Positions 21,216-43,337 of a stretch of DNA of 64,000 bases are shown piece by piece. The first letter of the stretch is position 1, and each line of letters starts with the position of its first letter. The notes under the pieces were generated by a model. It worked only from the letters and a program-made list of their open reading frames with translations, was not told where the DNA came from and ran no database searches. This stretch comes from Erythrobacter ramosus (GTDB lineage Bacteria > Pseudomonadota > Alphaproteobacteria > Sphingomonadales > Sphingomonadaceae): contig NZ_WTYB01000001.1 in the NCBI RefSeq assembly GCF_009828055.1, positions 26,001-90,000 of the forward strand. Direction: 5' to 3'. The position numbers were made by a program, and so were the translations under genes.

Positions 21216-21306
21216 GTCACCCTGAACTTGTTTCAGGGTCCATGGTGCCCCAAACACTGCACAGCGACTGGCAGACACATGGATGCTGAAACAAGTTCAG
21301 CATGAC
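21216..21306. repeat. REP-like inverted pair, CTGAAC-TTG-TTTCAG family
   Basis: Two hairpin units face each other. The left is CGTCA-like head, CCCTGAACTTGTTTCAGGG, then TCCATG. The right is its inverted relative with TGCTGAA and TTCAGCA arms. The outer two stem pairs differ between the copies (CC/GG against TG/CA), but pairing is kept. It fills the gap between serS and surE and may also act as a terminator. Confidence 0.8.
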
Positions 21307-28693: not shown

Positions 28694-28778
28694 CCCCGCC
28701 CCGGACCTGATCCGGGGCCCCGCTTTTTCTCGAGCACCCGATAGGCAGCTGGACCCCGGGTCAAGCCCGGGGCGGGGG
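28694..28778. repeat. REP-like inverted pair, CCCCGG family
   Basis: Two GC-rich hairpins face each other: CCCCGGACCTGATCCGGGG on the left and CCCCGGGTCAAGCCCGGGG on the right, both with five-base loops. Outer CCCCG heads point away from each other. The pair lies between the convergent L,D-transpeptidase and tilS genes and ends seven bases from the tilS stop, so it may also act as a terminator. Confidence 0.8.
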
Positions 28779-39613: not shown

Positions 39614-40615
39614 ATGAGCCTGCTGACCCGCAACCCCACCGGCACCGATCTGCTGGCCGAGATCAACCGTTTGCGCAAAGAGCGCAACGGGGTGATCCTC
39701 GCGCATTATTATCAGACGCCCGACATTCAGGACATTGCCGACTTCGTGGGGGACAGCCTCGAATTGTCGCGCAAAGCGGCGGCGACCGATGCCGACGTGA
39801 TCGCGTTCTGCGGGGTCAAGTTCATGGCCGACACCGCCAAGATCCTCTCGCCGCAGAAGACGGTGATCCTGCCCGACATGGACGCCGGGTGCAGCCTTGA
39901 GGACTCCTGCCCGCCCGAGAAATTCCGCGCGTTCCGCGAAGCCCACCCCGATCACATCGCGCTGACTTACATCAACTGCTCGACCGAGGTGAAGGCGCTC
40001 TCGGACGTGATCGTCACCAGCTCCAGCGCCGAGACGATCCTCGCCCAGATCCCGCCCGAGCAGAAGATCATCTTCGGCCCCGACCGGCACCTCGGCGGCT
40101 ACCTCAGCCGCAAGTTCAACCGCGAAATGCTGCTGTGGCCGGGCGTGTGCATCGTCCACGAGGCGTTCTCGGAAACCGAACTGCTCAAGCTGAAAGAGCA
40201 ATATCCCGGCGCGCCGATTGCCGCGCACCCGGAATGCCCGCCGACGATCATCGATCACGCGGACTATGTCGGCTCGACCAGCGGCATCCTAGCCTTCGCC
40301 AAGGACTTTGAAGGCGACACCCTGATCGTCGCGACCGAGCCGCACATCATCCACCAGATGGAAAAGGCGCTGCCGAACAAGCACTTCATCGGTGCGCCCG
40401 GTGCGGACGGAAACTGCTCGTGCAACATTTGCCCCTACATGGCGCTGAACACGATGGAGAAGCTGTATGTGGCGCTCCGCGATTTGCAGCCGCAGATCGT
40501 GATTGAGGAAGGCATCCGCCTGAAGGCCAAGCGCAGCCTCGACCGGATGCTGGAGATGGCAAGCGGGACTGTGGGCATGGGGGATTTGGGCAAGGTACAT
40601 TTCAGCGGGGATTGA
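39614..40615 (+). CDS. nadA: Quinolinate synthase NadA
   Basis: NadA condenses iminoaspartate with dihydroxyacetone phosphate to quinolinate, using a 4Fe-4S cluster. The 333-residue protein has GVILAHYYQTPDIQDIADFV, DMDAGCSLEDSC, and the cluster-region cysteines in WPGVCIVHE and NCSCNICPYM. No nadB or nadC is adjacent. Two REP-like hairpins follow the stop. Confidence 0.96.
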   Translation: MSLLTRNPTGTDLLAEINRLRKERNGVILAHYYQTPDIQDIADFVGDSLELSRKAAATDADVIAFCGVKFMADTAKILSPQKTVILPDMDAGCSLEDSCPPEKFRAFREAHPDHIALTYINCSTEVKALSDVIVTSSSAETILAQIPPEQKIIFGPDRHLGGYLSRKFNREMLLWPGVCIVHEAFSETELLKLKEQYPGAPIAAHPECPPTIIDHADYVGSTSGILAFAKDFEGDTLIVATEPHIIHQMEKALPNKHFIGAPGADGNCSCNICPYMALNTMEKLYVALRDLQPQIVIEEGIRLKAKRSLDRMLEMASGTVGMGDLGKVHFSGD

Positions 40616-40630
40616 AGCTCTGCGACGGCT

Positions 40631-40658
40631 CTAGGTGCCAGCTTTCGCTGGCATGACG
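40631..40658 (-). repeat. REP-like hairpin, GNRA-loop family, single copy
   Basis: On the minus strand it reads CGTCA, then TGCCAGC-GAAA-GCTGGCA, then CCTAG. It is 14 bp from the next copy, in opposite orientation. Two outer stem pairs differ from that copy but remain paired. Confidence 0.8.
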
Positions 40659-40671
40659 TACTATTCTAACT

Positions 40672-41053
40672 TCGTCACCCCAGCGAAAGCTGGGGCCTAG
40701 GGCGGAATTATGCTAAGCCTCTGAAATGGAACGCGGTGGCTACGTCTATATCATGACGAACAGGCGCTATGGCGTGCTCTACACCGGCGTAACCAGCGAC
40801 CTACCCGCCCGCATCACGCAACACCGCGAAGGCAAGGGCGGCACGTTCACATCGCGCTACAAATGCACGCGGCTCGTTTATGTCGATCACTACCCGACCA
40901 TCGAAAACGCCATCGCCCGCGAAAAGGCGATCAAGGCCTGGAAGCGCAGCTGGAAGATCGAAGCGATCGAGAGGCAGAACCCGACTTGGGATGACCTCTT
41001 CCTCACGCTCAACGCTTGATTGCCCTAGGCCCCAGCTTTCGCTGGGGTGACGA
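40672..41053 (+). mobile_element. REP-flanked GIY-YIG unit with perfect 32-bp inverted ends
   Basis: Positions 40672-40703 and 41022-41053 are exact inverted copies. Each has an outer CGTCA, a stem CCCCAGC-GAAA-GCTGGGG and an inner CCTAGGG. They enclose one gene for a 97-residue GIY-YIG nuclease, whose stop codon ends two bases before the right repeat. No target-site duplication is visible. The layout resembles a REP-transposase unit, but mobility is inference. Confidence 0.7.
40726..41019 (+). CDS. Small GIY-YIG nuclease
   Basis: The 97-residue protein is a stand-alone GIY-YIG domain (UPF0213 type). It has the first motif YVYIM (residues 6-10), LYTGVT (18-23), Arg29 in LPARITQH, the catalytic Glu66 in AREKAIKAW and Asn85 in RQNPTWDDL. 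All key residues are present, so it should be an active DNA-nicking enzyme. The basic C-terminus fits DNA binding. It sits between perfect inverted REP-like hairpins, which are plausible substrates. Confidence 0.9.
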   Translation: MERGGYVYIMTNRRYGVLYTGVTSDLPARITQHREGKGGTFTSRYKCTRLVYVDHYPTIENAIAREKAIKAWKRSWKIEAIERQNPTWDDLFLTLNA

Positions 41054-41059
41054 GGGAGG

Positions 41060-41962
41060 CTAGGTGGCCCTCGCCCTGCTCACCGCCAAAGCAGCCCCCA
41101 CCAGCACCATCCCCACAATATCCAGCGGCGACAGCACTTCGCCGAACGCCAGCCAGCCGTAGATTGAGGCGACCGCGGGCTGAGTCAGCAGCGCCAGTCC
41201 CACCACCAGCGGCGGGAAGTATTTCAGCGCGAACACCATCAGCCCCTGCCCCACCAACTGGCTGAGCACGAACAGCCCCACCACCGGCCCCCAAGCCTGC
41301 GGCCACACCGGCTCGCCCAGCGCCAAGGCTATCGCCAGCAGCACCGGGCAGCCGAACAGGCTCACCCATACCAGCAGGCTCCACGATCCGAACTGCCCAC
41401 GCGCACCCTGCAAGGTCAGCAGGTACACTGCGTAAAGCAGCCCCGCCGCCACGCTGAACAGGTCGCCGATCAGGGTTTCGTTCGAAATCTCGAGGCTGCG
41501 GCCCATCAGGATCGCCGCGCCCGCCAAGGCAAAAACAATCGCCAGCCACTCCAGCCGACCGGGCAGCGTGCGCGCGACGAGGAAGCCCCAGAACAGCAGG
41601 ACAATCGACCCGGCATTGCCGAACAGCGTCGCATTGCCCAGTCGCGTCATGCCGATCCCGATGTGCCAGCTGGCGAGATCGAGCGCGAAAGTCACCGCCC
41701 CCAGCGCCACCAGCGCGAGCGTTGTCGCGGGCATCCCCGTCAGCCGCTGGCCATTCGTCCGCGCCAGCAGCACCAGAAATGGCAACGCCAGAAACAGCCG
41801 CCAGAACCCGGCGGCTACCGGCCCGGTATCCGCCAAACGCACGAACCACGGCCCGATTGCCAGCGCCACGTTGCCGCCAAACAGCGCGAGCAGCAGCAGC
41901 CACGCCGCCGGGCGCGGCGGTTCACCGACAAGTTCTACTTGGGGGCGCTCCTCAATTTCCAT
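41060..41962 (-). CDS. EamA/DMT-family transporter
   Basis: The 300-residue protein has ten hydrophobic segments in two EamA repeats. The first includes GNVALAIGPWFVRLADTGPV, and the second ends with LAFGEVLSPLDIVGMVLVGAAL. Such proteins export or import small metabolites; the substrate is unknown. It is divergent from the old-yellow-enzyme gene with 70 bp between them. Confidence 0.88.
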   Translation of the reverse strand: MEIEERPQVELVGEPPRPAAWLLLLALFGGNVALAIGPWFVRLADTGPVAAGFWRLFLALPFLVLLARTNGQRLTGMPATTLALVALGAVTFALDLASWHIGIGMTRLGNATLFGNAGSIVLLFWGFLVARTLPGRLEWLAIVFALAGAAILMGRSLEISNETLIGDLFSVAAGLLYAVYLLTLQGARGQFGSWSLLVWVSLFGCPVLLAIALALGEPVWPQAWGPVVGLFVLSQLVGQGLMVFALKYFPPLVVGLALLTQPAVASIYGWLAFGEVLSPLDIVGMVLVGAALAVSRARAT

Positions 41963-43255: not shown

Positions 43256-43337
43256 CGTCACCCCAGCGGAAGCTGGGGCCTAGGGCCAAATGGTGCAGCG
43301 CTTGCCGCTCTAGGTCCCAGCTTCCGCTGGGATGACG
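43256..43337. repeat. Gene-less inverted REP pair, GNRA-loop family
   Basis: Two copies of the GIY-YIG-flanking repeat face each other with 24 bp between. The left reads CGTCA, CCCCAGC-GGAA-GCTGGGG, CCTAGGG. The right is inverted, with TCCCAGC-GGAA-GCTGGGA. The outermost stem pair has changed from C-G to T-A while still pairing. It looks like a non-autonomous (MITE-like) version of the 40672-41053 unit. Confidence 0.85.

Follow-up and report, generated by a model that had tools for sequence, protein, structure and literature searches.

The window analysed here, a 64,000-nt stretch of the Erythrobacter ramosus genome (G000; 3.24 Mb in 10 contigs; window C2:26001-90000), carries a 382-bp unit that is located between a plus-strand gene (39614-40615) and a minus-strand gene (41060-41962), which from their sequences we take to be nadA and an EamA-type gene, respectively. 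The unit and its surroundings contain the following features.

40628..40658, minus strand: third family-1 hairpin, diverged, upstream of the unit (84% match to the right arm)
40672..40703, plus strand: left arm of the unit, a family-1 hairpin whose CGTCA head faces outward, with a 7-bp stem, a GAAA loop and the tail CCTAGGGC
40726..41019, plus strand: GIY-YIG nuclease gene, UPF0213-like, 97 residues, ATG to TGA (profile match and relatives)
41022..41053, minus strand: right arm of the unit, a family-1 hairpin identical to the left one in inverted orientation (arm comparison and folding)
43256..43337, no strand assigned: gene-less family-1 doublet, REPIN-like, two hairpins with heads outward and a core of about 20 bp

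The two arms of the unit (32 nt each) were 100% complementary. The first-pass annotation had described them as exact inverted copies around an intact GIY-YIG gene whose stop codon lies two bases before the right copy, and this description proved correct; the outer CGTCA, the seven-pair stem, the GAAA loop and the tail were likewise borne out by sequence and folding. To this we add the third hairpin, the gene-less doublet and the copies found throughout the genome. As single-stranded DNA, the family-1 hairpin was predicted to fold at -9 kcal/mol (z -2.83; 4 of 200 shuffles folded equally well) and the doublet at 43256-43337 to fold as a whole at -33 kcal/mol (z -7.4). This doublet was also present in genome G095, and it was not seen in the 340 bases compared from each of ten other relatives. 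Its long hairpin gave five weak matches to microRNA models in Rfam, all below gathering.

The 97-residue protein matched Pfam PF01541 at 64.5 bits (cut-off 22.6) and also PF10544 (T5orf172) at 21.7 bits (cut-off 20), and an NCBIfam search with it returned no family. Its nearest named relatives came from Porphyrobacter and other Erythrobacteraceae. Over 150 relatives taken from the matches listed, Y8 was kept at a frequency of 0.98 and Y19, R29, E66 and N85 at 1.00; we take these to be the catalytic residues of GIY-YIG proteins. The Tyr, Tyr, Arg, Glu and Asn of the GIY-YIG site were invariant in 39 alignment rows, and the fold comparison assigned the protein to the GIY-YIG fold, with Slx1, At-HIGLE, UvrC, I-TevI, a 5hmC restriction enzyme and UPF0213 proteins as related rows. 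Two UPF0213 proteins from structural genomics, BH0048 (1zg2; sequence E 7.9e-07) and EF2693 (1ywl; sequence E 0.0012), had similar folds.

Throughout G000, the family-1 pattern (at most 2 mismatches) matched 35 times, and the reversed control pattern 0 times. Thirteen of 14 neighbour pairs within 500 bp faced outward; 12 of these had a spacing of 52-53 bp and the thirteenth (351 bp) encloses the nuclease gene. Nine of the 35 copies were single by pattern, some of them with a diverged partner. The doublets are ~80 bp long; their cores are partly conserved and lie in either orientation, and the outer flanks looked unrelated by eye. No sign that the core is a deletion remnant of the gene was seen by eye.

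G000 had five profile matches to GIY-YIG: the window gene, three further small genes and one 670-residue frame, a putative UvrC as judged by its size. Each of the three other small genes lay between hairpins of a separate family. By the patterns used, families 2, 3 and 4 had 24, 20 and 51 copies in G000 (reversed controls, 0), close neighbours faced outward in 10 of 11, 8 of 8 and 15 of 17 cases, and 4, 4 and 21 copies were single. Families 2 and 4 have one more hairpin, placed between the left arm and the GIY-YIG gene. The window itself carries doublets of two of these families, whose GIY-YIG genes sit elsewhere in G000.

21216..21306, no strand assigned: family-2 doublet (C2:47216 and 47282 minus 26000; paralogue at G000:C2:1086780-1087058)
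28700..28771, no strand assigned: family-4 doublet (C2:54700 and 54751 minus 26000; paralogue at G000:C4:214350-214631)

We then examined how general the hairpin-enclosed arrangement is. When 100 genomes of the genus were scanned, 76 had GIY-YIG matches (0-13 per genome; the thirteen and eleven matches in G036 and G055, respectively, represent an expansion of these genes), and 150 loci from 65 genomes, taken among the matches listed, formed the test set. Each locus was scored by the best ungapped repeat between its 200-bp flanks, with a threshold of 14 or more; controls were scored for inverted repeats only. Among these listed loci, an inverted flanking repeat was found at 128 of 150, and an inverted or direct one at 135, compared to 1 of 292 control positions inside the same loci and 18 of 150 mismatched controls in which left and right flanks came from different loci. 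The pair that flanks the window gene scores 32, and 0 of the 292 control positions reached 18. Therefore the flanking arrangement is not due to chance. Of the 15 loci that lacked a pair by both measures, 11 showed a one-sided GTC-headed hairpin under a looser rule and four showed none; the 11 include L103 and L171, with hairpins unlike the known classes, and L068, a real pair that was misjudged owing to an extended frame. Among named relatives across phyla (114 found, 80 kept), 56 of 80 had an inverted pair and 64 an inverted or direct one (control, 0 of 150); the flanked ones came from Gammaproteobacteria, Bacteroidota, Acidobacteria, Armatimonadetes, Chloroflexi and Methylomirabilis. Furthermore, an even draw from the phylum gave a GIY-YIG match in 157 of 299 genomes, and 25 of 29 new loci from this draw had an inverted pair (control, 2 of 56). 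In total, 209 loci had an inverted flanking repeat (128 + 56 + 25; a few genomes may recur between the sets), and enclosure of the GIY-YIG gene by hairpins is thus the rule, beyond chance. The system had been proposed as an alphaproteobacterial one; it is found there, but is not confined to that class. At L282, L318, L364, L366 and L371 the flanking hairpins were much longer or bulged, and therefore short perfect stems are not the only form that the repeat takes.

The gene could be a mere passenger, lying by accident between two ordinary regulatory or terminator-like repeats, as the strong folding of the doublets as single strands would allow. We consider this very improbable: all three sets of controls contradict it, no T-run follows the hairpin stem on either strand, and the hairpin is paired with the protein clade, as described below. 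The control positions and the absent T-run led us to set the terminator reading aside.

The pairing emerged from a comparison of paralogues. One hundred of the 128 inverted-pair loci have a flanked paralogue in their own genome, and in 97 of these the hairpin resembled the one around the nearest protein from a different genome more than the one around the paralogue (1 tied, 2 less alike; mean similarity 25.1 versus 7.6). Hairpin and protein were correlated (Mantel r = -0.73; of 999 permutations, none went below -0.05). When the 128 hairpins were clustered without protein information, 16 classes resulted, and hairpin class required 17 changes on the protein tree (the minimum is 15; shuffled classes required 87.5 on average, and none of 200 shuffles came as low), while genome labels required 109; this tree is built from few columns with rough support, and near-copies add to the clustering. 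The repeat thus goes with the protein clade and not with the genome, and the expectation of one and the same hairpin around GIY-YIG genes had to be dropped, as the hairpin differs between protein clades. In 182 distinct boundaries with a score of 18 or more, aligned on GTC (which is therefore imposed), C precedes GTC in 89%, a pyrimidine precedes that in 88% and A or G follows in 84%, giving a head of CGTCA or CGTCG. Protein columns 68, 71 and others track the hairpin class, a relation confounded with phylogeny, and these columns are therefore a lead only.

The number of hairpins in a genome was related to the presence of the gene. Clade A, to which the window gene belongs, has 13 carriers among the 100 genus genomes (including G005, which has an intermediate hairpin). 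Beyond their own flanks, carriers had a median of 6 family-A copies, with 0 in three of the 13 (G028, G046 and G005; no exact pattern), and 19 of the 87 non-carriers had 1-7 copies each. Carriers exceeded non-carriers (13 vs 87, Mann-Whitney p 4e-7, relatedness not corrected). In clade B, a sister clade, 5 of 8 carriers had further copies (the other three had none beyond their own flanks) compared to 4 of 92 non-carriers (p 8e-9). Both tests counted hairpins rather than doublets, and the p values are optimistic, given the relatedness of the genomes and the manual removal of flank copies. The idea of an independent REP-nuclease system would have been endangered by orthologues that consistently lack hairpins or by hairpins indifferent to the gene; the genus loci and the excess of copies away from the gene in carriers went the other way on both counts and support it.

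Signs of mobility came from clade B. In G055, seven clade-B units that are 95-98% alike lie at unrelated places, some with a broken frame. In addition, family-B stretches that match the unit ends and miss the gene middle occur nine times, seven times in G083 and once each in G054 and G064. In six of the nine, of which five are from G083 and one is from G054, the two hairpin heads are exactly preserved, and the length is 158-228 bp. Such internally deleted copies were seen in clade B only and not in clade A. The units and their deleted copies form the pattern that is left by an autonomous element with shrunken derivatives. In G055 and G083, roughly 25-55 bp beyond the hairpins are common to some clade-B copies, and therefore the true ends may lie elsewhere than at the hairpins; we could establish no target-site duplication. 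In G055, the sequence common to L054, L068, L070-L073 and L076 extends past both hairpins by up to about 40 bp (left ...GCGACCCCGGAACGGACTTTACC, right GAAAAGGGCAG...CCACCC), which gives the impression of a unit embedded in a further dispersed repeat or moving together with one.

The same observations bear on the possibility that a homing-like selfish GIY-YIG gene invades hairpin doublets made by something else. Such a gene would be found inside an outward doublet of its own family, as is the case here, and a specific target would likewise yield clade-specific pairing. However, the copy number follows the gene and deleted copies of the gene are themselves dispersed. Moreover, a Y1 transposase (PF01797, RAYT-type) was not found in G000, and it was present in 7 of the 100 genus genomes, among which are G091, a carrier, and G007 and G037, non-carriers that have hairpins. 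We regard an invading gene as improbable; a RAYT as the mover is not supported in G000. Nor does the nuclease gene have the setting of a homing endonuclease gene: it is free-standing between intact nadA and EamA frames, and the unit has no intron, intein, reverse transcriptase or interrupted cognate allele.

The window gene itself behaved differently from its clade-B relatives. The suggestion of a mobile or domesticated system needs a correction here: the signs of mobility are indirect and come from the sister clade, whereas in 13 of 13 carriers the clade-A gene lies beside nadA, no more than about 2 kb from its 3' end, and recent hopping is not supported. In the non-carriers G022, G031 and G072 the EamA match starts 3, 12 and 13 bases past the nadA match, in G029, G096 and G007 a lone right hairpin lies beside EamA, as expected after loss, and the other non-carriers fetched had different DNA between the two genes. 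Sites with and without the unit thus both exist, in intergenic DNA that has diverged. L187, L192, L202, L209 and L210 had differing extra DNA downstream of nadA, and therefore the gap may be an insertion hotspot. The gene was reversed in 5 of 13 carriers, with both hairpins clear in three (G017, G046 and G005); such reversals would result from a flip between the hairpins or from excision with subsequent re-entry. On a nadA tree of 33 genomes, out of 97 in which nadA was matched, gene presence required 12 changes (shuffled mean 10.5) and is therefore not clustered, and orientation among carriers required at least 3; this tree is poorly resolved and does not separate loss from transfer. Across eight clade-A comparisons dN/dS was 0.04-0.42, and therefore the protein is kept. 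Altogether, inheritance and loss at a single locus appear to describe the window gene better than hopping does.

Small GIY-YIG proteins that each go with a repeated hairpin-like site are known as Ssn enzymes, the nearest known kind of system, and they have homologues with other specificities. Chenal et al. are said to have described this family in Nat Commun in 2025, as site-specific single-strand nucleases with NTS repeats in Neisseria. Its definition (a small GIY-YIG protein with a multi-copy cognate repeat) covers the window gene, and by this analogy the system stands near the Ssn family and may belong to it. The pairing of a GIY-YIG protein with a repeated site may therefore not be new. 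If Ssn covers it, the additions made here are the doublet architecture, four families in one genome, the deletion derivatives, the in-place flips and the breadth of the rule; outward doublets, four families per genome, internally deleted units and in-place flips are not known to have been described for Ssn. Among the papers listed by our literature searches we recognised none that links GIY-YIG genes to REP-type repeats, a result that does not show absence from print. By analogy with Ssn biochemistry, the nuclease could cut its single-stranded cognate hairpin and tune DNA uptake or recombination, with no transposition, and the hairpins would multiply by other means. Clade-specific pairing and a fixed locus with frequent loss fit such a role. 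We nevertheless think it unlikely, since the deleted copies and multi-site units of clade B and the uniform 52-53 bp doublets resemble a copied element.

Another parallel is the REPIN-RAYT (TnpA-REP) system. In the parts of the sources on which we draw, the gene lies beside or between REPs, inverted REP doublets are dispersed and REPINs are more numerous where the gene is present (PMC8049555, PMC8266576), and the foot of RAYT REPs is most often a GTAG tetranucleotide (PMC8266576). The window system likewise has a gene among repeats, dispersed inverted doublets and more copies in gene-holding genomes. It differs in its GIY-YIG enzyme, where the system in those parts has a Y1 HUH protein, and in its CGTCA head as opposed to GTAG. 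Thus, as far as these parts of the sources go, it works like REPIN-RAYT and is not a member because enzyme and foot motif differ. GIY-YIG nucleases also occur within selfish DNA in homing endonucleases and Penelope-like retroelements, according to the portion of PMC1564403 used here; compared with these, the window gene is small, free-standing, hairpin-ended and has no intron, intein or reverse transcriptase.

We lean towards the view that the GIY-YIG nuclease, enclosed by outward copies of its predicted cognate hairpin, disperses this hairpin by nicking the single-stranded CGTCA head. The system is REPIN-like and the nuclease is its likely enzyme; cutting and mobility are inferred. Against this reading, no cutting or movement was observed, and several findings given above also count: the single locus of all 13 clade-A genes, the non-carriers with family-A copies and the carriers without further copies, the 15 genus loci that have no pair by either measure, the sequence shared beyond the clade-B hairpins, the lack of an established target-site duplication, and the Y1 transposase in G091, G007 and G037. 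In the mechanism that we propose, the enzyme would bind the single-stranded hairpin on the lagging strand or on incoming DNA and cut near YC|GTCA, and the freed doublet would be pasted elsewhere with host help. By analogy with RAYTs and REPINs, the unit with its gene would act as the autonomous element, and the ~80-bp doublets as the non-autonomous one. In the lineage of the window, the gene has settled in the nadA-EamA gap, where it is passed on, lost and at times found reversed. More tentatively, and with some doubt, we suggest that small GIY-YIG nucleases may move a large share of bacterial GTC-headed hairpin repeats, as REPIN-like transposable elements with a non-HUH enzyme, each lineage having its own hairpin class, chosen partly by columns 68/71 beside the catalytic glutamate, and shrinking to gene-less doublets.

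REP-like repeats are common bacterial non-coding sequences. The route to them in the parts of PMC8049555 and PMC8266576 used here is the RAYT. If GIY-YIG nucleases drive a second route, a likely enzyme could be named for many GTC-headed repeats that are now anonymous, among them those of Alphaproteobacteria, Gammaproteobacteria, Bacteroidota and further phyla, and the predicted target of each enzyme would be readable from its own flanks. The 209 flanked loci are candidates for natural pairs of enzyme and hairpin, from which one could learn how hairpin DNA is read by a nuclease of ~100 residues.
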